Origin: Rhipicephalus microplus
Taxonomy: Eukaryota; Arthropoda; Arachnida; Ixodida; Ixodidae
Reading direction: 5' to 3'
NCBI RefSeq assembly: GCF_043290135.1
Contig: NC_134704.1
Coordinates: 21,705,001 to 21,769,000, forward strand
Length of the DNA: 64,000 nt
Part shown: positions 5,055-60,254 of the stretch, one piece after another
How the letters are laid out: each line of letters opens with the position of its first letter
How positions within the stretch are numbered: position 1 is the stretch's first letter
Position numbers and translations under genes: made by a program
The notes under the pieces: generated by a model
Databases searched by the model: none
What the model was told of the DNA's origin: nothing
Seen by the model: only the letters and a program-made list of their open reading frames with translations

Positions 5055-6254
5055 GGAAGGAAGGAAGGAAGGAAGGAAGGAAGGAAGGAAGGAAGGAAGG
5101 AAGGAAGGAAGGAAGGAAGGAAGGAAGGAAGGAAGGAAGGAAGGAAGGAAGGAAGGAAGGAAGGAAGGAAGGAAGGAAGGAAGGAAGGAAGGAAGGAAGG
5201 AAGGAAGGAAGGAAGGAAGGAAGGAAGGAAGGAAGGAAGGAAGGAAGGAAGGAAGGAAGGAAGGAAGGAAGGAAGGAAGGAAGGAAGGAAGGAAGGAAGG
5301 AAGGAAGGAAGGAAGGAAGGAAGGAAGGAAGGAAGGAAGGAAGGAAGGAAGGAAGGAAGGAAGGAAGGAAGGAAGGAAGGAAGGAAGGAAGGAAGGAAGG
5401 AAGGAAGGAAGGAAGGAAGGAAGGAAGGAAGGAAGGAAGGAAGGAAGGAAGGAAGGAAGGAAGGAAGGAAGGAAGGAAGGAAGGAAGGAAGGAAGGAAGG
5501 AAGGAAGGAAGGAAGGAAGGAAGGAAGGAAGGAAGGAAGGAAGGAAGGAAGGAAGGAAGGAAGGAAGGAAGGAAGGAAGGAAGGAAGGAAGGAAGGAAGG
5601 AAGGAAGGAAGGAAGGAAGGAAGGAAGGAAGGAAGGAAGGAAGGAAGGAAGGAAGGAAGGAAGGAAGGAAGGAAGGAAGGAAGGAAGGAAGGAAGGAAGG
5701 AAGGAAGGAAGGAAGGAAGGAAGGAAGGAAGGAAGGAAGGAAGGAAGGAAGGAAGGAAGGAAGGAAGGAAGGAAGGAAGGAAGGAAGGAAGGAAGGAAGG
5801 AAGGAAGGAAGGAAGGAAGGAAGGAAGGAAGGAAGGAAGGAAGGAAGGAAGGAAGGAAGGAAGGAAGGAAGGAAGGAAGGAAGGAAGGAAGGAAGGAAGG
5901 AAGGAAGGAAGGAAGGAAGGAAGGAAGGAAGGAAGGAAGGAAGGAAGGAAGGAAGGAAGGAAGGAAGGAAGGAAGGAAGGAAGGAAGGAAGGAAGGAAGG
6001 AAGGAAGGAAGGAAGGAAGGAAGGAAGGAAGGAAGGAAGGAAGGAAGGAAGGAAGGAAGGAAGGAAGGAAGGAAGGAAGGAAGGAAGGAAGGAAGGAAGG
6101 AAGGAAGGAAGGAAGGAAGGAAGGAAGGAAGGAAGGAAGGAAGGAAGGAAGGAAGGAAGGAAGGAAGGAAGGAAGGAAGGAAGGAAGGAAGGAAGGAAGG
6201 AAGGAAGGAAGGAAGGAAGGAAGGAAGGAAGGAAGGAAGGAAGGAAGGAAGGAA
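5055..6254. repeat. Perfect (GGAA)300 microsatellite
   Basis: A 1,200-bp tandem array of GGAA with no interruption visible in any row, equal to exactly 300 units. The open frames over it (KEGR and PSFL repeats) are artefacts of the repeat. The array lies at the left (3') side of the minus-strand LINE-B, and a second short GGAA run touches that LINE's 3' end at 6,858-6,930. The simplest origin is therefore expansion of a LINE tail of CCTT/TTCC type. The exact length depends on assembly quality. Confidence 0.97.
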
Positions 6255-6857
6255 GATGATGATGATGAAAAACATTTATTGTAAAAGAGAGAGGTACGGG
6301 GCCGAAGCATGACCCCGCTACATGGTCGGCGTCCTTAGTCCGGGACACCGCATGACGAAGGAAGGAAGGAAGGAAGGATGATGATGATGATGAAAAACAT
6401 TTATTGTAAAAGAGAGAGGTACGGGGCCGAAGCATGACCCCGCTACATGGTCGGCGTCCTTAGTCCGGGACACCGCATGACGAAGGAAGGAAGGAAGGAA
6501 GGATGATGATGATGATGAAAAACATTTATTGTAAAAGAGAGAGGTACGGGGCCGAAGCATGACCCCGCTACATGGTCGGCGTCCTTAGTCCGGGACACCG
6601 CATGACGAAGGAAGGAAGGAAGGAAGGATGATGATGATGATGAAAAACATTTATTGTAAAAGAGAGAGGTACGGGGCCGAAGCATGACCCCGCTACATGG
6701 TCGGCGTCCTTAGTCCGGGACACCGCATGACGAAGGAAGGAAGGAAGGAAGGATGATGATGATGATGAAAAACATTTATTGTAAAAGAGAGAGGTACGGG
6801 GCCGAAGCATGACCCCGCTACATGGTCGGCGTCCTTAGTCCGGGACACCGCATGACG
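6255..6857 (-). repeat. Five tandem 125-bp units made of a LINE 3' end
   Basis: Five head-to-tail units of 125 bp. Four look identical and the first differs only by a shorter ATG run. Each unit holds (GGAA)n, (GATGAT)n and about 85 bp of unique sequence. On the minus strand the unit ends with CAATAAATGTTTTTCATCAT, so it contains a polyadenylation signal (AATAAA) followed by a (TCA)n tail. This is the layout of a LINE 3' UTR and tail. The unit is not part of the adjacent LINE-B 3' UTR and probably comes from another LINE family. The 80-aa open frames here are by-products of the repeats. Confidence 0.9.
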
Positions 6858-6930
6858 AAGGAAGGAAGGAAGGAAGGAAGGAAGGAAGGAAGGAAGGAAG
6901 GAAGGAAGGAAGGAAGGAAGGAAGGAAGGA
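6858..6930. repeat. Short (GGAA)n tail array
   Basis: About 18 GGAA units directly joined to the 3' end of the minus-strand LINE-B. On the LINE's own strand it reads as a CCTT/TTCC tail. Confidence 0.9.
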
Positions 6931-12720: not shown

Positions 12721-13216
12721 ATGTATGTATGTATGTATGTATGTATGTATGTATGTATGTATGTATGTATGTATGTATGTATGTATGTATGTATGTATGT
12801 ATGTATGTATGTATGTATGTATGTATGTATGTATGTATGTATGTATGTATGTATGTATGTATGTATGTATGTATGTATGTATGTATGTATGTATGTATGT
12901 ATGTATGTATGTATGTATGTATGTATGTATGTATGTATGTATGTATGTATGTATGTATGTATGTATGTATGTATGTATGTATGTATGTATGTATGTATGT
13001 ATGTATGTATGTATGTATGTATGTATGTATGTATGTATGTATGTATGTATGTATGTATGTATGTATGTATGTATGTATGTATGTATGTATGTATGTATGT
13101 ATGTATGTATGTATGTATGTATGTATGTATGTATGTATGTATGTATGTATGTATGTATGTATGTATGTATGTATGTATGTATGTATGTATGTATGTATGT
13201 ATGTATGTATGTATGT
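12721..13216. repeat. Perfect (ATGT)124 microsatellite
   Basis: A 496-bp uninterrupted ATGT array. The MYVC and IHTY open frames come from the repeat. Confidence 0.97.
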
Positions 13217-13544
13217 ACAACTGCTTTTTCTATCTCAAAAGTCCCCCAAAAGTTTCTTCAGGTGATTCTAAGGTGATTTTCGCAGATTAAGCAGAAAATG
13301 GCATACAGCAAGCACATAATGACGTAACACTATATGATATGACGACAAAGGAAACTTTGCGAGAATAAGGAGATATACGTAGCATCCCACGTAAGCAAAT
13401 GGTGACGTCTATTTCGGTACATGAACTACAGGTGAGTACGTAATTCCACATATTTTAAAGAACGCACGTTGTGCCATGTTCATTCAAAGGACACATCGGA
13501 ATCGTGTTTTTCAGTTGTGCCTGTAGAGATATATTTTCAAAGGT

Positions 13545-19618: not shown

Positions 19619-19978
<360 letters not shown>

Positions 19979-23120: not shown

Positions 23121-23122
23121 AA

Positions 23123-24131
23123 TAAAAAATGGCAGCATATCCACAGAGTAAATGATGGAGAGTGGGGCGAAGAATTCGTCCGTCCATTCATTCTTGCTTC
23201 CGTCCGTCCATGCGTCCGTCAGTGTAACCGTCCATGCGTCCGTCAGCCCGTCCGTGCGTGCGTCTGTTCGTGCGTCCGTCCCTGCGTTCGTCCATGCAGC
23301 CACCCCTGCGTCCGTTCATGCGTCCATCCATGCATCTGTCTACGTGCCCGTTCGTCCATCTATTCAACACTCCAAGTACCACCATCTCGCATCTTTTCAT
23401 CATATATTCCCCATATAGAAGCACCGCCATCCAGCGGACATTCCAAGGACTAAACGAGAGGTGGCACACGCACACTTTCTTACGGCTTGCGCTTCGGGTC
23501 CACTTCACACCTTTAACCACCTCGAGTTCATGGTATATACTAGTTCACTGTATTCATGGCACTGCGGCCGAACGCTCGCTAAACCTTTCGAAAACCAAGG
23601 AGGTTACGCCCAGCTAGTATGACGTAGCAACTTTTTCAGTCAGATAGTGCTCAATGTACATGCCAATGGCTGCTAATGGGAAATGAGAGGCGGAGAATTC
23701 GGCTTTTACTTTCTTACGGCTTGCGCTTCGTATCTACTTCCCATTTTTAACCACCTGGAGTTCATTCATGGTATATACAAGTTCATTGTATTCATGGCAC
23801 TGCGGCTCAACGCTCGCTAAACCTTTCTAAAGCTAAGGAGGTTACACCCAGCGAGTATAACGTAGCAACTTTTTCTTGTCAGATAGTGCTCAATGTACAT
23901 GCCAATGGCTGCTAATAGTGATCGCAGCCTGCGCGTTAACTAAAAGCCGAATGCTCCTGTCCCTCATTCCCCATTAGCAGCCATTGACATGTACATTGAG
24001 CACTATTTTTTATTGTTCAACAACGCACAGAAGAATTCTCTCACCGGCACCACCTTGGAGGTCAAAATGTTATACTTGTTACATACTACGGGGGATTAAC
24101 GGGTGCCGCTATAAGAAGCTTCGCCCCTAAA
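23123..24131 (+). mobile_element. GGGGCGAAGC-ended element, copy 1
   Basis: This is one of at least five copies in the window of the same unrecognised non-coding element. It starts with an A-run, ATGGCAGCATATCCAC and GTGGGGCGAAG. A minisatellite of CGTCCGTCCATG-like units (23,175-23,365) follows, then a body (TCTCGCATCTTTTCATCATA, then TTCTTACGGCTTGCGCTTCG). It ends GCTTCGCCCC at 24,118-24,127. In this copy about 210 bp of the body are duplicated in tandem (23,480-23,690 and 23,710-23,920). A 30-odd-bp inverted repeat (ATAGTGCTCAATGTACATGC and its complement) lies in the second half. No protein is encoded. Confidence 0.8.
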
Positions 24132-29475: not shown

Positions 29476-30229
29476 GAAAAAATGGCAGCATATACACGGA
29501 GTGAATGATGGATAGTGGGGGAAGCATCCGTCCATCCATTCGTTCTTGCTTCCGTTCATCCATGCGTGCGTCTGTGTGGCCGCCCGTGCGTCCATCCGCC
29601 CGTCTGTGCGTGCTTCTGTTCGTGCGTGCGTCCCTGCTTTAGTCCATGCGTTTGCTCCTGCGTCCGTCCATGAATCTGTCTGTGTGTCCGTTCGTCCACC
29701 TATTCAACACTCCAAGTACCACCATCTCGCATCTTTTCATCATATATTCCTCATATAGGAGCACCGCCATCCAGCGGACATTCCAAGGACTGAACGAGAG
29801 GAGGCACACACACACTTTCTTACGGCTTGCGCTTCGTGTCTACTTCCCACCCTTAACCACCTCGAGTTCGTGGTATGTACCAGTTCACTGTATTCATGGC
29901 ACTGCGACCCAACGCTCGCTAAAACTTTCTAAAACCTAGAAGGTTACGCCCTGCGAGTATAACGTAGCGACCCTTTCTTGTCTTCTGTGCGTTGTTGAAC
30001 AATAAAAAATTCGCAGCGTGCGTGTTAACTAAAAGCCGAGTTTTCCTGTCTCTCATTCCCTCTTAGCAGCCATTCGCATGTACATTGAGCACTATCTTTT
30101 TTGTTCAACAACGCACAGAAGAACTCTCTCACCAGCACCACCTTGGAGGTCAAAGTGTTATACTTGTTACACACTACTACAATGGCTACGAGGGACAAAC
30201 AAGTACCGCTATAAGAAGCTCCGCCCTAA
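29476..30229 (+). mobile_element. GGGGCGAAGC-ended element, copy 4
   Basis: It starts AAAAAATGGCAGCATATACA with GTGGGGGAAGCATCC. Minisatellite, body and internal inverted repeat are all present, without the tandem duplication of copy 1. The end GCTCCGCCCTAA is interrupted by a MITE: the TAA at 30,227-30,229 is duplicated at 30,911-30,913, where the element's terminal AAG continues. Confidence 0.8.
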
Positions 30230-32009: not shown

Positions 32010-32014
32010 ATGTG
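32010..32014. repeat. Left target-site duplication ATGTG
   Basis: This ATGTG immediately precedes the first base of the left LTR-like repeat. The same five bases immediately follow the last base of the inverted right repeat at 37,166-37,170. Confidence 0.8.
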
Positions 32015-33070
32015 TGTGATGTGTGGTGCGCGTTCAAAGTGCGCGCCTTCGAAAAGTGCGCGTCACGGAAAAAAAAACAAAAGGAGAAATACCAGAGTGC
32101 ACGTGCGGTGATGCTTAAACAAGAATGACGACGTTAAAGAGCGTCAAGCACGAGGATGCGTGGCAGGACGTGAAGTAAACAAAAGGTAAAACATCCAATG
32201 GGCAGCGAACACGGAGATTTCAAGGCCCAATGGCTTGACACCACGAAACAGTAGTATCTCCGATGAGAACGAGACAAGTGGGCCAGAGCTGAAGCAGGAG
32301 CCTGGGGAGACGAGAGCAAGGGGAATTCGAGGCAGGCAGTGCAAGCGGAAGGTCGTCACCGGACCGGGCGCTGAAGATGGGCCGTTGGGTTCCGGACCCG
32401 AGCCTACAGGACTTCCACCGGCCGGGGCCTCCTGCTGTCGGGTTCCCGCTCCAAAGGACCGTGGCCATCCGGTCCTGAACTCCTTTCCAGAGCCTGCGGA
32501 CTTCGGTTCCGGCAGGCGAGCTACAGCCGTCGGGCTCCGGGCCCGAGCTGTGCGCCCAGCTGCTTGACTAGGTCGACCCTAGTTCCCGGACGCGTCGCCA
32601 CCAGCCTGCGTTCTCCCGTCTCCGACGTGTCCACGCTCCTCAAGCCGAAACCATCACGATTTGGTAGGGCTTTTCGACGTGTCGCCAGCAGCCAGCGTTC
32701 CCTCGTCCTCGTCCAGCCCACGCATTGACGCAGGAGTCACGGCGTTCCGGTTTCTCATCACCGCCGAAAACCAACTTGTGGGTGAGACTGCACCGATACT
32801 CTTGCGCTACTCCCATCACTCAGCCCCTTTCGAACGTTAGGTTTAGTTACTGACTTTGAACGTTCTTGTTGGGTGTTTACAGATGTGTTTCGTCATGTCC
32901 AGTCAACTGTTTATTAAGTGTTTTGTTTTGTGAGGAGTCTTTGCCTTTTTACTTTTCAATTAAACTTTTTGTGTGTTTCTTGGAAACCGAACGGCTTTGT
33001 CCTTATTAACAAAACTCTCTGAGGCTCAGCCCGGGAGAAAAACAAATCAGCAACAAGAAACCGCATCACA
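32015..33070 (+). repeat. Left LTR, full length (1,056 bp)
   Basis: It begins TGTGATG and ends CATCACA, so the LTR itself has 7-bp inverted ends with the canonical TG...CA. The PBS-like sequence follows three bases later. An ATTAAA polyadenylation-type signal lies at 32,959-32,964, suggesting R near that point. The first 431 bp (to 32,445) are repeated without visible mismatch, inverted, at 36,735-37,165. Confidence 0.85.
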
Positions 33071-33073
33071 AAT

Positions 33074-33090
33074 TGGCGTCCGCGACAGGA
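33074..33090 (+). promoter_or_regulatory. Primer-binding-site-like sequence, left arm
   Basis: TGGCGTCCGCGACAGGA starts three bases after the LTR. Its TGGCGnCCGnGACA pattern resembles the tRNA-Arg-type PBS described for 412/mdg1-like Ty3/gypsy elements. The identity of the tRNA is inferred only. Confidence 0.65.
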
Positions 33091-33136
33091 CAAAGTCGTT
33101 TGTTTTTCCAGTAGATTTTTTGACGCGGTTAACACG

Positions 33137-34576
33137 ATGACGAACACGTGGGAGTTAATTGAGTTGGCGGATAAAATGGGACTGACGGGAGCGGAGTTTA
33201 GAGTATGGTACGAGGAGCGGATGGAGAGGGAGCGTGAGCAACGGGCTGCAGAACGAAAGGCGGCGAAGGAAAAGCTTGAATTGGTGCTTAGAGCTAAGAA
33301 GGAGGAGCTAGAGCGCGTAACGCGTGAAAATAAAGTGTTGCTAGAGCGTCAGACACGCATACTGAAGCAGCAGCTCCAATTAGAGAGGGTGGACTTCGAG
33401 CGGCGACTCGAGCTTGCGATGGCGAAAAGGGGGCAGCTGGCGATGCAGAAGGTCGAGCAAGCGGTGAATGTTTGCTCCGATAGCAGCGTTTGCTGGAGGG
33501 AAGTCGATTCCTGCAAGGTTGGCCTCGAGCCTCGCGACAGCCTTACTTCGGAGCGAGAAGCTCAGATAGAGGAGGGCAGAGAGGTGGACAGCCAAGAAGG
33601 CAGGAGTCATGAGGAGTTTGTTGAAGCGACGGAAAGCTTCTCTGGCTGGGAACATATTACTTCCGTTAGCTGCTTGGGGACCTCTGAGAGGCCGAGCACC
33701 TATGAAGAAGAGCGCCTGGATATGGGCGACCTAGAAGCTGTGGAAAATGTTGTGGAGCAAAGCTTCGATAGCAGGGAACGAAGAAGCTCCATTCAGAATG
33801 AGGTGTGTATCAGAACGTCTCAGAGGCCGAGCACATTTCGGGAAGGGGTAGGGCTACCTCTCAATAGCTCCATGGAAGGAGCGCTAGAACGTCATTGGGA
33901 AGATGGCAGCGAATGCCATGAAGGCTCTGATATAGTGGCCACTGATTGTTTTGTACCGACAGAGGTAGCAGCAGGCGCCACGTCAATGGTCCTAGACCAT
34001 ACATATATCTCACTCAGAGAGAGAGGGGATTCTAGTTCACAGGATAGCGTAACTGCTATTTGTCCGAGAAAACACGATGGGAGTGCTGAAGCACTCTTCA
34101 AAATAAACAGTATCGAATCGGAGGTGGGCTCGACAGTAGGTATGGAGAATGCCAGACAGGGTCTTGAACCTGAGAACGTGATTGGTTTTGAACCTATAAT
34201 TAAGTCCACTCAAGATGAGCTGTATAATGACCGAGCACAACGGCATCCCTTCTCAAGAATCCAGGAACCTCACACGCTTGTCGGAGCGTTTGGGCTTGCT
34301 GAGGGCACCCCGAGCTTGTGTTCATTAGATGGTGAATTAAAAGAAAGCATTTGTGTGAGAGATTGTGGCATTTGGACATTCGTGTCTCAGTGCGTTTCGT
34401 GTCGACGCCGACGGCTCGAGACCGCGCCCTGTTCCTCTGTGACCGGTAAGCGTTCATGTGGCCGGCGGGGGCGCAGACACGCGTTTCAGCGAAAGTGCAT
34501 AAAAGCATGTTTGCCACAGTTACTTTCGAAACGCGCGAGAAGGGCAGTGCGTCTGGTTTGGGACGCGATAACCTGA
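33137..34576 (+). CDS. Gag-like coiled-coil protein, left arm (479 aa)
   Basis: An intact open frame starting 66 nt after the LTR, downstream of the PBS-like site. This is the position of gag in LTR elements. Residues 1-30 form a short helical domain (LADKMGLTGAEFRVWYEE). Residues about 30-110 are a strongly charged coiled coil rich in E, K and R. The middle is acidic and serine-rich, with GVGLPLNSS near residue 237 followed by ECHEGSDIVATDCF. The C-terminus is basic and cysteine/arginine-rich and ends RLVWDAIT. There is no CCHC zinc knuckle, protease or polymerase. The helix-plus-coiled-coil N-terminus resembles Gag proteins of tick Ty3/gypsy-type elements (from memory), but the assignment is inference. 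The start is supported because the right-arm paralogue starts at the equivalent place. Confidence 0.78.
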   Translation: MTNTWELIELADKMGLTGAEFRVWYEERMEREREQRAAERKAAKEKLELVLRAKKEELERVTRENKVLLERQTRILKQQLQLERVDFERRLELAMAKRGQLAMQKVEQAVNVCSDSSVCWREVDSCKVGLEPRDSLTSEREAQIEEGREVDSQEGRSHEEFVEATESFSGWEHITSVSCLGTSERPSTYEEERLDMGDLEAVENVVEQSFDSRERRSSIQNEVCIRTSQRPSTFREGVGLPLNSSMEGALERHWEDGSECHEGSDIVATDCFVPTEVAAGATSMVLDHTYISLRERGDSSSQDSVTAICPRKHDGSAEALFKINSIESEVGSTVGMENARQGLEPENVIGFEPIIKSTQDELYNDRAQRHPFSRIQEPHTLVGAFGLAEGTPSLCSLDGELKESICVRDCGIWTFVSQCVSCRRRRLETAPCSSVTGKRSCGRRGRRHAFQRKCIKACLPQLLSKRARRAVRLVWDAIT

Positions 34577-34864
34577 GTGTAGGGTTAGAAAACCGGTAGC
34601 TCTTTCTGGACTTCGACTTTTAGATGCGGACACAAGTAGCTTTGTCCATAGTCGATTTTGTAGTAAAAAGGTTTATTCCGGGTTTCAGAACTTTTAAATG
34701 CAATTGGGTGAATCTAAAGTTTAAGTGTGGACATTTGGACGATGTAGCGAACTGTAGCCCGGTGATGTGTTGAACTGCGTGGTGCAAATATGTGGTTTAA
34801 TTGTGACGTAGTGCAGAACGCGCACTCATCGGCAGTTTTTTTTTTCTAAAAAAAAAACTTGAAT
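34577..34864 (+). other. 3' UTR of the left arm
   Basis: A non-coding tail between the stop and the central purine tract. From about 34,728 on it is recognisably the inverted counterpart of 34,907-35,010 (GTGGACnTTTGGnCnATG, then GAACTG, then GCACTCAnCGGCAG plus a T-run). The two arms therefore stay homologous right up to the centre. Confidence 0.7.
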
Positions 34865-34945
34865 AAAAGGGGGGCGTATCTCCTTTTGTTTTTTTTTTTT
34901 CCGAGAAGAAAAAAAAAACTGCCGTTGAGTGCACGTTTCGCACTG
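34811..34945. repeat. Central palindrome with two back-to-back purine tracts
   Basis: The arms are 34,811-34,847 and 34,910-34,945 (GCACTCAnCGGCAGTTTTTT and its complement). Between them, AAAAGGGGGG on the plus strand (34,865-34,874) and AACAAAAGGAG on the minus strand (34,880-34,890) point towards each other, five bases apart. In an LTR element a polypurine tract of this type lies just upstream of the 3' LTR and primes plus-strand DNA synthesis. Here each tract meets the other instead of an LTR. Confidence 0.7.
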
Positions 34946-35249
34946 CACCACAATTTACCCACATATGTCCGCCACACAGTTCACTGCATTGCCCAAAGGT
35001 CCACATTCACTAACCTCAAAATACGCAAGAAGTGAGAAAAAGTATGGACACATCTAGCGGATTGTGAAAATCCCCAAATTAGAAGTACACCACCCCTTTT
35101 TTTTTATCATATATACCCTATCATCTCAAAAACTATACATCATGTTAATGTTACATTGCATGTAACTTCTTCAAATATTTACAAGCAACACCCTTCCATG
35201 GTCCGCAAGCAAGATCCAAAAGAAACCAGCGGGAAATCGAATTTGACGC

Positions 35250-36674
35250 TTAAGTTATAGCGTCCCATACAAGACGTTTAACTGCTCTAACCATTTGACA
35301 AGAGTAAGGAATCGGAAGCCAGTGGAAGAATTCTCGACCGTAAGCTCGTATGAACCTAAAGCTGTGTATCACCAGGTTCCCAACCTCGAAATCACAAGCA
35401 TACACGCTGGAATGTCTGTATGCCAGTCGGAGGCGTTGCCTCCAGGCGCACCAGTACAACCACGCCTGAATCATTTCATCCTTCCCACGAACGCCTTGCT
35501 TGAGCTCGTAAGCCGCTAATCGTTGAGACATCTTAACAGAAGCGACCTCTTCAACCGAAGATGCCAAAGAGCACCAGTCGGCGTCCTTCCTCGTACAATA
35601 ACCTGCTGGACCATTACTGCCTTCTGGTTCACTTTCCATCCCTTCAGCTTTCTGTATTGCTTGTTCATCAATACTTTCAACCCTTCTGCCTGGGTCATCG
35701 TGATTACCCTCATTGTCACATATAGCTGACCTACATTGCAACTCTACTCTCTGTTCTTCAACAAGTGTTTTTGCATTTTGCTCCAATATTCTTCTAAAAG
35801 CATCATCTACAATTTCCCGAGAACACAAGCCATCTCTCTGTATGGGCAAGTTATAATCATGGTGAAAAACCATGTCCGTAGCGTCTGTTGCTATCTCCAG
35901 TGGCCCAAAACAATAGGTAGCTGCTACATCAGAGCTTTCATTATGGCATTCGCCGGCATTACCTAGGAGACCTTTTATTGCTCCTTCAGCGGAGCTATTC
36001 AGAGGCAATCCTACCTCTGAATAAAGTGCGCTTGACCTCTCACAGGTTTCAAAATACCCTTTACTCTGAATGGAACGTTCTTGTTCCATGCTCACGAAGC
36101 ATTCCTGCGCTTCAATAAGCTTATCGAGTCTCCTAGTCTTTTGACTGTTTACCTCCCTGTCATACTCCTTCAGAGTTTCTTTCTCTAGCGAAAGGTCATG
36201 ACGAGGTACAGGGTCAGTCTCACGTAAATTCAAATCGCTCCCGATGTAACTGCTTTCAGAGCACACCTCATCCACTGGTTGACTACTCTGGCTCTCAGAC
36301 CACGTATATTCAGCGTTTTCCCTCTCAAGCCACTGCTGCAAATCCGCATATTCTAGTTCCAACAGTCTCTTCTTTTCGCGCATCTCAATCTCGAGCAGCC
36401 TTTTCTTTTCACGCATTTCTAGCTCAAGCTGCTCCTTCTTAGCGCGTGTCTCTCGCTCGAGCTTCTCTCTCCTAGCCCGTGTTTCTCGCTCGAACTCCTC
36501 TCTCTTAGCGTGTGTTTGCAATGCAATCTGCTGCTTTTTAGCGTCACATATCGCAGCCCGTTCCTCTTGCGCTTGCGCCATTTGCTTGTCGTACCACTCC
36601 TTGAACTCCGCTCCCTTGAGACTTATACTCTCCGCCAGATCTAATAATTCCGAAGTGCTTTTCATGGCTTTCAT
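35250..36674 (-). CDS. Gag-like coiled-coil protein, right arm (474 aa)
   Basis: The diverged paralogue of the left-arm protein, on the opposite strand. The open frame reaches back into the LTR (to 36,803), but I choose the ATG at 36,674. The leader between PBS and start aligns with the left arm there, and the following residues align (LAESISLKGAEF against LADKMGLTGAEF). Residues about 25-110 are a near-perfect coiled coil with internal repeats (RREKLERETRAKKEQLE, then two EMREKKRLLE units). EVGLPLNSS lies near residue 220, followed by ECHNESSDVAATYCF. The C-terminus again ends KRLVWDAIT. No zinc knuckle or enzyme domain is present. The frame is intact, which is notable in a region where every LINE is broken. 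Confidence 0.78.
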   Translation of the reverse strand: MKAMKSTSELLDLAESISLKGAEFKEWYDKQMAQAQEERAAICDAKKQQIALQTHAKREEFERETRARREKLERETRAKKEQLELEMREKKRLLEIEMREKKRLLELEYADLQQWLERENAEYTWSESQSSQPVDEVCSESSYIGSDLNLRETDPVPRHDLSLEKETLKEYDREVNSQKTRRLDKLIEAQECFVSMEQERSIQSKGYFETCERSSALYSEVGLPLNSSAEGAIKGLLGNAGECHNESSDVAATYCFGPLEIATDATDMVFHHDYNLPIQRDGLCSREIVDDAFRRILEQNAKTLVEEQRVELQCRSAICDNEGNHDDPGRRVESIDEQAIQKAEGMESEPEGSNGPAGYCTRKDADWCSLASSVEEVASVKMSQRLAAYELKQGVRGKDEMIQAWLYWCAWRQRLRLAYRHSSVYACDFEVGNLVIHSFRFIRAYGREFFHWLPIPYSCQMVRAVKRLVWDAIT

Positions 36675-36711
36675 CGCGTCGAAAAATCTACATGAAAAAC
36701 AAACGACTTTG

Positions 36712-36728
36712 TCCTGTCGCGGACGCCA
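36712..36728 (-). promoter_or_regulatory. Primer-binding-site-like sequence, right arm
   Basis: The minus strand reads TGGCGTCCGCGACAGGA, identical to the left-arm PBS. It is preceded by AAT and the LTR end, and followed by a leader that matches the left leader at most positions up to the ATG. Confidence 0.65.
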
Positions 36729-36731
36729 ATT

Positions 36732-37165
36732 TGTGAACCCGACAGCAGGAGGCCCCGGCCGGTGGAAGTCCTGTAGGCTCGGGTCCGGAACCCAACGGCC
36801 CATCTTCAGCGCCCGGTCCGGTGACGACCTTCCGCTTGCACTGCCTGCCTCGAATTCCCCTTGCTCTCGTCTCCCCAGGCTCCTGCTTCAGCTCTGGCCC
36901 ACTTGTCTCGTTCTCATCGGAGATACTACTGTTTCGTGGTGTCAAGCCATTGGGCCTTGAAATCTCCGTGTTCGCTGCCCATTGGATGTTTTACCTTTTG
37001 TTTACTTCACGTCCTGCCACGCATCCTCGTGCTTGACGCTCTTTAACGTCGTCATTCTTGTTTAAGCATCACCGCACGTGCACTCTGGTATTTCTCCTTT
37101 TGTTTTTTTTTCCGTGACGCGCACTTTTCGAAGGCGCGCACTTTGAACGCGCACCACACATCACA
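36732..37165 (-). repeat. Right LTR, inverted, internally deleted (434 bp)
   Basis: Read on the minus strand it equals left-LTR positions 32,015-32,445 plus the terminal ACA, followed by the PBS. A segment corresponding to 32,446-33,067 (622 bp) is absent, with TC microhomology at the breakpoint. The deleted part carries the ATTAAA signal and the presumptive R/U5, so this LTR keeps only U3-like sequence and the last bases. Confidence 0.85.
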
Positions 37166-37170
37166 ATGTG
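37166..37170. repeat. Right target-site duplication ATGTG
   Basis: It directly follows the terminal TCACA of the element and matches 32,010-32,014. Inverted-arm homology stops exactly at this boundary. Confidence 0.8.
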
Positions 37171-37417
37171 TTAATTAGCATACCGTGCCTTGCGTGTTTC
37201 TTGTGCATGAAGTGCGTATGTGCCACCGTTAATAGCGGAACAAAAACAAGCTTTTGTGATGGGTTGGAGCATTGAACGACCCACCCATTACACAATTCGC
37301 ATTGTATGACAACTGCTTGTTCTTTGGCCGTTTTAAAACGCTTTATTAGTCGTATTAACCTGATATCTCTCCCGACATCAAGCCTGTCTAGGGCAAGTCC
37401 ACCAAGAAGTTCCAAAC

Positions 37418-37605
37418 ACCGGCGTGGCTCAGTGGTAGAATACTGGGCCCAGCGGGCCCGGTTTCGAGCCCCACTGTGTCATTGGAACAAGTTTTTTTTT
37501 TCTGATTTTGCGCGATGTGGTTACGGACACCGGCGGTGGCGGACAACTACAGCGCTGCGCGAGACTCGAGTTGTGATCTCATAACATCTATCGCTGTAAA
37601 TAAAA
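37418..37605 (+). mobile_element. tRNA-Gly-like SINE
   Basis: The head GCGTGGCTCAGTGGTAGAAT resembles the 5' part of tRNA-Gly (A box). GGTTTCGAGCCCC is a good B box. The head is followed by CACTGTGTCATTGGAACAAG, a T-run, and a body with GTTACGGACACCGGCGGTGG and GAGTTGTGATCTCATAAC ending in CGCTGTAA. I see only one copy in this window. It is unrelated to Ruka in its body. Confidence 0.6.
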
Positions 37606-53369: not shown

Positions 53370-53602
53370 TAGATAACATGTGGAATTCTACGTCCCTAAG
53401 CCAGATATGATTATGAGTGGCGCCGTAGCGCAGGGCTCCGCGAATTTCGACCAGTTGGCGTTCACTAACCTGCATTCACATCATGCTGTGCGCGGGCTTC
53501 TACTATTTCACTGCCACCGAAATGCCACGGCCGGTATCGAACCCGCGACCTTCGGGTCAGCACCCCAGCACCATATACACACTGATCCACCGTGGCAGAC
53601 AG
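53370..53602 (-). mobile_element. Ruka-type SINE, variant subfamily
   Basis: On the minus strand the head starts TGCCACGGTGGATCAGTGTG and has GGTCGCGGGTTCGATACC as B box. ATGCCACGGC's complement and GCATTTCGGTGGCAGTGAAA replace the usual GGAGGCGAAA block. GAACGCCAACTGGTCGAAAT, GCGGAGCCCTGCGCTACGGC and CTCATAATCATATCTGGCTT then match the Ruka body in order. The altered middle suggests a subfamily. The head touches the (TATG)n array on its right. Confidence 0.82.
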
Positions 53603-53973
53603 TATGTATGTATGTATGTATGTATGTATGTATGTATGTATGTATGTATGTATGCATGTGTGTATGTATGTATGTGTGTTGTGTATGTATGTATGTATGT
53701 ATGTATGTATGTATGTATGTATGTATGTATGTATGAATGTATGTATGTATGTATGTATGTATGTATGTATGTATGTATGTATGTATGTATGTATGTATGT
53801 ATGTATGCATATATGTATGTGTATGTGTATGTATGTATAAATGTATGTGTGTTGTGTATGTATGTATGTATGTATGTATGTATGTGTGTTGTGTATGTAT
53901 GTATGTATGTATGTATGTATGTATGTATGTATGTATGTATGTATGTATGTATGTATGTATGTATGTATGTATG
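53602..53973. repeat. (TATG)n array with GTGT interruptions
   Basis: About 370 bp of ATGT units broken by TGTGTGTTGTG variants that recur three times, so local duplication of larger blocks has occurred. The open frames are artefacts. Confidence 0.95.
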
Positions 53974-54084
53974 TAGAATGTCTTTTGTCAAGTGGATCTT
54001 CATGCATGCGTGCATCAACTTGACTTTGTGTTGTATTCGTGCTCACGTTTACGCATGTGAGTGCTTAGGTGTGTCCATCGGTGC

Positions 54085-54884
54085 TTGCGTTTTTAGGGGC
54101 GAAGCTCCTTAAACCGGCACCCATTCGTCCCTCGTAGTAGTAGTAGTGGTCGTAGTGTGTAACCAGTCTTAGATTTTGACCTCAAAGGTGGTGCCGGTGG
54201 GAGATTTCTTCTGTGCGTTGTTGAACAATAAAAAAAATCGCAGCGTGCGCGTTAACTAAAAGCCGAATTCTCCTGTCTCTCATTACCTCTTAGCCGCCAT
54301 TGGCATGTACATTGAGCACTATCTGACAAAAAAGGGTTGCTACGTTATACTCGCTGGGTGTAACCTCCTTGGTTTTAGAAAGTTTTAGCGAGCGTTGGGC
54401 CGCTGTGCCATGAAAACAGTGAACTAGTATATACCATGAACTCGAGGTGGTTAAAGGTGGGAAGAAGACACGAAGTGCAAGCCGTAAGAAAGTGTGCGTG
54501 TGCCTCCTCTCGTTCAGTCCTTGGAATGTCCGCTGGATGACGGTGCTTCTATATGAGGAATATGTTATGAAAAGGTGCGAGATGGTAGTACTTGGAGTGT
54601 TGAATAGGTGGACGAACGGACACACAGACAGATGCATAGACGGACGCACGGATGGCTGCACGGATGGATGGACGCATGGACGGAAGCAGGAGCGGATGCA
54701 TGGACGGACGCACAGATGGACGTGCGGACGCACGAACAGACGCGCGCACGGAGGGGCGTATGGACGCACGGGTGGCCACACAGACGCACGCATGGACGGA
54801 TGGAAGCAAGAACGAATGGACGGACGGATGCTTCGCCCCACTATCCATCATTCACTCCGTGGATATGCTGCCATTTTTTTTTTG
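54085..54884 (-). mobile_element. GGGGCGAAGC-ended element, copy 5
   Basis: The most complete single-body copy. It begins TTTTTAGGGGCGAAGCTCC at 54,090, has the internal inverted repeat around 54,250-54,330 and the body. The GGACGGAC-type minisatellite lies at 54,605-54,830. It ends GCTTCGCCCC (54,831-54,840), CATTCACTCCGTGGATATGC and a T-run. A (GTA)n/(TAG)n stretch near 54,137-54,148 replaces single units in other copies. Confidence 0.8.
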
Positions 54885-59898: not shown

Positions 59899-60073
59899 TA
59901 ATAAGATCTAACAGACAATAATGCCAAGGAAGGTATAGGGGAAGTTATTAGGCCAATTGTAATGTAAATGAGAAGAAAGACAAGTGGGTGAAAAGATAAC
60001 TTGCCGTGGGCAGGATCCGAACCTGCGACCTTCGAATAACGTGTTCGATGCCCTACCACTGAGCTACCACGAC
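59899..60073 (-). mobile_element. tRNA-SINE, copy 2, with intact cloverleaf head
   Basis: The head (60,003-60,073, minus) folds as a tRNA. The acceptor stem GTCGTGG pairs with CCACGGC (one wobble). The D arm reads TAGCTCAGTGGTAGGGC, the anticodon stem TCGAA/TTCGA is perfect, and the T arm is GCAGG-TTCGGAT-CCTGC. Position 33 of the anticodon loop is A instead of T, and an AT-rich body follows directly, so it is a SINE head and not a tRNA gene. The body is nearly identical to 22,290-22,406, which defines a second SINE family distinct from Ruka. Confidence 0.88.
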
Positions 60074-60254
60074 AGCTATCCCCCCAGCCACTTTATTGGG
60101 TATATATGTCAATTTAAACGTGGGAGTGTCAGTCAGCGCCACTAGTAGCCATGGCGGCGAGTGGGGTACACTTTATGAGCCTGTTTAGCGTCACGTAGCA
60201 CGTGAACTTATTACTAACTGGCAGCTGACCAATAGTCTCCCGTATACAACCCTA

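Follow-up and report, generated by a model that had tools for sequence, protein, structure and literature searches.

Positions 32015-37165 of the analysed DNA—a stretch of 64,000 nucleotides from Rhipicephalus microplus contig NC_134704.1, hereafter called the window—hold a 5,151-bp retroelement unit made of two mirrored halves. On balance, we favour the view that this unit is a tail-to-tail cDNA dimer of two diverged relatives, which would have integrated once via its two U3 ends with integrase supplied in trans. The anatomy and the counts on which this account is built were measured, and from them we infer all of its further steps. The LTR arms of the two halves show no difference in 431 positions and lie beside bodies with dS above 1, which suggests that the arms are recent copies of one template.

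Anatomy of the inverted unit

Inspection of the sequence placed the boundaries of the unit at two copies of ATGTG, forming a left (32010-32014) and a right (37166-37170) target-site duplication, with TGTGATG...CATCACA as the outer ends. A 5-bp flank match of this kind is expected by chance at about 1/985 from base composition and at about 1/746 from the 5-mers of the window itself. Each half consists of an LTR, a primer-binding site (PBS), a single intact ORF and a purine tract, and this order is mirrored in the second half; both U3 ends point outward, and a 3' LTR is absent from either half. The sequence-only reading had already described the ATGTG flanks, the termini and the mirrored order around a central palindrome, and had treated the whole as one inverted unit with a single target-site duplication and two outward U3 ends. 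The anatomy supports that description, with inverted 431-nt arms, a PBS that occurs twice, two convergent open ORFs and, as the central palindrome, an imperfect inverted repeat (34771-34847 / 34907-34983, 83%). Among the hallmarks of LTR retroelements, TG...CA LTR ends, a PBS-like site, a purine tract and a target-site duplication within the 4-6 bp range were all found by sequence and position, and the arms are inverted instead of forming direct repeats. Since the unit thus lacks direct LTRs and no pol was found in it, we class it as a derivative of LTR retroelements and not as an autonomous member.

The left LTR (32015-33070, + strand) is 1056 bp long, runs from TGTGATG to CATCACA and was taken as complete; it is followed by AAT and then by the PBS-like TGGCGTCCGCGACAGGAC. 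The right LTR (36732-37165, - strand) measures 434 bp, the first 431 bp matching the left LTR without a difference and the last three being ACA. Accordingly, the inverted arms at 32015-32445 and 36735-37165 are 100% complementary over 431 nt, with 0 differences and a 95% upper bound of 0.7%. The right LTR is shorter because 622 bp have been deleted from its interior, with a TC overlap of 2 bases at the jump—a feature absent from the earlier description. Beyond the jump, the right half reads ACA, AAT and the PBS, and 41 further bases are identical before the halves diverge. The lost 622 bp contain an ATTAAA poly(A)-like signal, located at 32959 and the only one found in the left LTR, together with the 5' side of a predicted U5-leader stem (32988-33003, + strand), so that the right LTR is presumed to be without its R and U5. 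This stem, which was obtained by fold prediction, would pair with 33087-33102 and enclose the PBS; the prediction is modest, with a z-score of -1.52 and 15 of 200 shuffles folding at least as well.

The left PBS (33074-33091, + strand) was recognised as PBS-like by its sequence and position, and the same 18 bases recur at the inner edge of the right LTR (36711-36728, - strand). Both the PBS and the bases right after it are identical between halves. The primer might be a tRNA-Arg, which is a guess; the only tRNA gene called in the window by Rfam and ARAGORN was a tRNA-Thr (CGT) at 60001-60074 (- strand). Just right of the unit, positions 37417-37490 hold what we take to resemble a tRNA-derived SINE, which was not called by Rfam or ARAGORN.

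At the centre of the unit, the left purine tract AAAAGGGGGG (34865-34874, + strand) and the right purine tract AAAAGGAGA (34879-34887, - strand) are separated by the 4-bp joint CGTA (34875-34878). The run-ups to these tracts form the imperfect inverted repeat given above, with a local alignment score of 114 against a shuffle maximum of 38 (n=1000). Their 83% likeness indicates that the purine tract is an equivalent end point for the two halves, and we take the two tracts to be the putative PPT/U3 borders. No second copy of the centre was found within the window, and viral_contigs, which is not a tick collection, gave 0 exact matches. In addition, a 19-bp purine-rich tract within U3 (32069-32087, + strand; LTR positions 55-73, 54 bp from the LTR end) has the same sequence as a portion of the central purine tract in the right half. 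With this tract included, the first 100 bp of the LTR matched the right centre at a level that 0 of 1000 shuffles reached, and did not match the left centre (497 of 1000 shuffles were as good). The outer 54 bp of the LTR matched neither the right nor the left centre, with 434/1000 and 220/1000 shuffles as good, respectively. We rejected a centre made of two truncated 3' LTRs, given that these outer 54 bp are unlike the centre and only the 19-bp tract matches; the tract could be a trace of an earlier displacement of the LTR border.

Several other repeats were observed elsewhere in the window. At 5055-6878, a (GGAA)300 array, perfect over 1.2 kb, passes directly into 5.2 copies of a 125-bp satellite whose unit itself contains GGAA repeats. 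Long tetranucleotide arrays of ATGT (12721-13217), TATC (19619-19978) and GTAT (53602-53975) were also present, the first two being perfect over 497 and 360 bp, and an interspersed repeat occurs in three copies (23121-23711, 29477-30226 and 54254-54882) that are 78-86% alike, one of them inverted.

Coding content and relatives of the two halves

The left ORF (33137-34576, + strand) is open over 479 aa and has a coiled-coil-like N terminus, and the right ORF (35250-36665, - strand) is open over 471 aa. The two proteins share 150 of 424 aligned residues (35%), and their nucleotide identity is 0.56 over the 424 codons; both terminate in RLVWDAIT. Over the whole alignment, three methods gave dS values of 1.07-1.30 and dN/dS values of 0.41-0.56, with dS for the last 159 codons estimated by only one of the three. 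The pairing of identical LTR arms with such far-diverged bodies had escaped the sequence-only reading, which had also termed both ORFs gag-like. That label is a guess: the left ORF matched no Pfam family at E<=1, the right ORF matched two that both scored far under their cut-offs, and a motif scan found no CCHC, protease or YxDD-like motif in either ORF. In the structure model of the right ORF, which has a mean pLDDT of 45.3, only an N-terminal helix and an extended coiled coil (residues 5-128) were predicted with confidence—a capsid fold could escape such a model. A search of solved structures by sequence yielded 0 matches.

The longest other frame in the unit, 225 aa from stop to stop (36283-36960), lies antisense to the right ORF; this frame and five further, shorter ones matched 0 Pfam families at E<=0.1. 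Consequently, no pol component (protease, RT, RNase H or integrase) was found, there being no long extra frame, no Pfam match and no YxDD-like motif in the ORFs. The two ORFs and the six shorter frames likewise gave no Pfam match to a tyrosine recombinase, nor to a transposase or its remnant.

Among 6170 candidates, two protein relatives of left ORF residues 1-330 were recovered, P0001 and P0002. P0001 is a full-length open frame of 479 aa from a 2922-base contig and is identical to the left ORF at 465 of 479 residues (97%), which tells us no more than that further copies or alleles of the left subfamily exist. P0002 is a gene model of Rhipicephalus microplus, the first 32 residues of which equal those of the left ORF, and its residues 34-122 correspond to the LTR on the same strand, with 86.5% identity over 89 aa to positions 32208-32474. 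A GTGAGC donor-like site lies one base past the 32nd codon of the left ORF (33234-33239), an AG stands two bases ahead of the LTR match (32204-32205), and the split codon formed at this junction gives P, which is residue 33 of P0002. On these sequence grounds, P0002 seems to join the ORF by splicing to an LTR that follows it in direct order. Such an order is likely that of an ordinary direct-LTR element, whereas the downstream LTR of the window unit is inverted; as one automatic gene prediction, P0002 could also reflect a splice that joins two neighbouring elements. The LTR match of P0002 also extends beyond 32445, the point at which the right LTR breaks off, which makes the long LTR the likely parent form. 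Moreover, the LTR in P0002 differs from that of the window, so the family LTR is not frozen and family-wide constancy does not explain the identical arms. As a tick gene model, P0002 likewise points to a tick as the likely host.

The right ORF had no protein relatives at E<=0.01 among the best 7994 candidates by shared words, nor among a further set of 1546 candidates. In viral_contigs, 0 relatives of the right ORF and of alignment A1 were found among 39 and 106 pattern matches, respectively, and genome_contigs gave 0 relatives of alignment A1 among 49. The PBS pattern was found in neither genome_contigs nor viral_contigs, the U3 pattern was missing from viral_contigs, and the left body from plasmids; these three collections are viral or prokaryotic, and absence from them says little.

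Origin of the tail-to-tail arrangement

In the dimer account, two related RNAs would have been reverse transcribed together, and plus-strand strong-stop DNA carrying the left LTR would have paired with the PBS on each of the two minus strands. The halves have this PBS and the bases right after it in common, and through such annealing both molecules would have received the same LTR—one copy with the 622-bp jump. Plus-strand synthesis would have halted at the purine tract on both molecules, with neither 3' LTR becoming double-stranded; the single-stranded tail would then have been lost, and the ends would have remained right at the PPT/U3 border. End joining of the two tails would produce a linear molecule with two outward U3 ends, which integrase, recognising U3 ends, would insert like normal cDNA, and one insertion would leave a single 5-bp duplication. 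The product would probably be unable to repeat the cycle, as it has no 3' R and its right LTR is without the presumed R and U5. The 622-bp deletion needs an extra step in this model, and the 19-bp U3 copy of the right tract is left unexplained by it.

Transfer of plus-strand strong-stop DNA to the PBS of the other genome has been proposed for asymmetric LTRs in HIV (PMC9278108). Similarly, PMC3579926 describes concerted integration by RSV integrase in vitro, the donors each bearing one U3 LTR end with a gain-of-function U3. In the tick family itself, U3-U3 integration is a hypothetical step.

A rather unlikely origin, in our judgment, is the separate insertion of two ordinary elements, tail to tail and nearby, followed by a deletion that removed both 3' LTRs and the intervening DNA; the equal flanks would then be coincidental, and the arms would be equal by gene conversion or youth. 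In favour of this history, P0002 points to the likely existence of ordinary direct-order copies, the right LTR is an example at this locus of a deletion with a 2-base overlap, and inverted repeats can convert each other, which could equalise the arms. However, this history requires a target-site coincidence of about 1/985 to 1/746, a deletion that ended at both purine tracts, and either recent conversion or two young copies with one LTR despite a dS of about 1.1 between the bodies.

We regard as improbable a stable palindromic family, in which the outward U3 ends act as TIRs for integrase from another element and strong-stop transfer between the halves keeps the arms identical in each round. 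Such a family would accord with two intact ORFs at a dN/dS of 0.41-0.56, with identical arms and one target-site duplication, and with the second full-length left ORF represented by P0001; the purifying selection, however, may equally stem from the parent subfamilies. The ordinary reverse transcription pathway needs a first-strand landing site in the 3' R, and without a 3' R, and with a right LTR that has lost the poly(A)-like signal and the presumed U5, ordinary reverse transcription of this unit would have no such site. Furthermore, P0002, the one relative with a named host, has the direct order, and neither the window nor viral_contigs—neither of them a tick collection—held a second centre. 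The sequence-only reading had set a stable, TIR-like palindromic family beside an aberrant inverted dimer integrated once; of the two the dimer fits best, and the direct order of P0002 speaks against the stable family.

An assembly artefact, with two elements misjoined via a shared LTR or the purine tracts, seems to us no less improbable than the stable family. Long identical arms and A/T runs are known assembly trouble spots, and the unit has long identical arms as well as A/T runs at its centre. Against this, a fold-back read or false palindrome would have made the arms identical throughout, whereas the bodies differ, and a misjoin would give matching 5-bp outer flanks only by chance; given matching flanks and arms that diverge further in, we consider an artefact unlikely. 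Finally, self-primed fold-back of one cDNA was rejected on the differing bodies, a DIRS-like element on the lack of a Pfam recombinase match in the two ORFs and six shorter frames, the presence of a target-site duplication and a centre that is not a copy of the outer termini, and a TIR DNA transposon on the lack of a Pfam transposase match in the same frames and the presence of a PBS-like site.

Relation to known elements and significance

The TR-GAG, LARD and TRIM-like groups are non-autonomous LTR retrotransposons that have at most one ORF, of a non-enzymatic kind. The tick unit resembles them in having a TG...CA LTR, a PBS, a purine tract and a single ORF per half, with no pol found, and differs from them in its inverted LTRs, its two tail-to-tail halves and its lack of capsid or zinc-knuckle evidence. 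Retroviral autointegration, which proceeds via integrase and cDNA, yields inversion circles with an inverted LTR order; the unit shares this order, but its bodies come from two different subfamilies and it lies in the genome as a linear insertion whose two U3 ends face outward. DIRS-like elements are not known to carry a target-site duplication.

In PMC5633606 and PMC2685390, DIRS-1-like elements are described as having inverted terminal repeats around coding DNA, which the former calls inverted LTRs, and the tick unit has the same arrangement. Unlike DIRS-1, however, it has a 5-bp target-site duplication, a PBS and purine tracts, with no recombinase or RT found, and the outer 54 bp have no copy at its centre; only the 19-bp tract further in matches the right centre. 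HIV-1 proviruses with asymmetric LTRs are similar in that one LTR is complete and the other deleted; as described in PMC9278108, they nevertheless carry one LTR at each end, 5' and 3', the 3' LTR being the one most often deleted, and are not tail-to-tail pairs. PMC4748124 reports 4-bp duplications for Ty3/gypsy lineages of Ixodes scapularis, compared with 5 bp here, and in view of this difference and of the missing pol, Ty3/gypsy is no more than a candidate superfamily for the unit. No comparable natural unit was found among the titles and abstract openings listed from the open-access literature, a scope outside which most subscription papers lie; the one paper there on 'inverted LTRs' concerns Dictyostelium retrotransposons, DIRS-1 among them.

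A PPT-to-PPT centre, outward U3 ends and a single target-site duplication together give a search image for large repeat-rich genomes. If a stable palindromic family were the true explanation, the unit would link LTR elements to TIR- or DIRS-like architectures in a naturally occurring form. If the dimer account that we favour is true, the unit would be a natural record of strong-stop DNA common to two different templates, of cDNA end joining at the purine-tract border and of full integration via two U3 ends.
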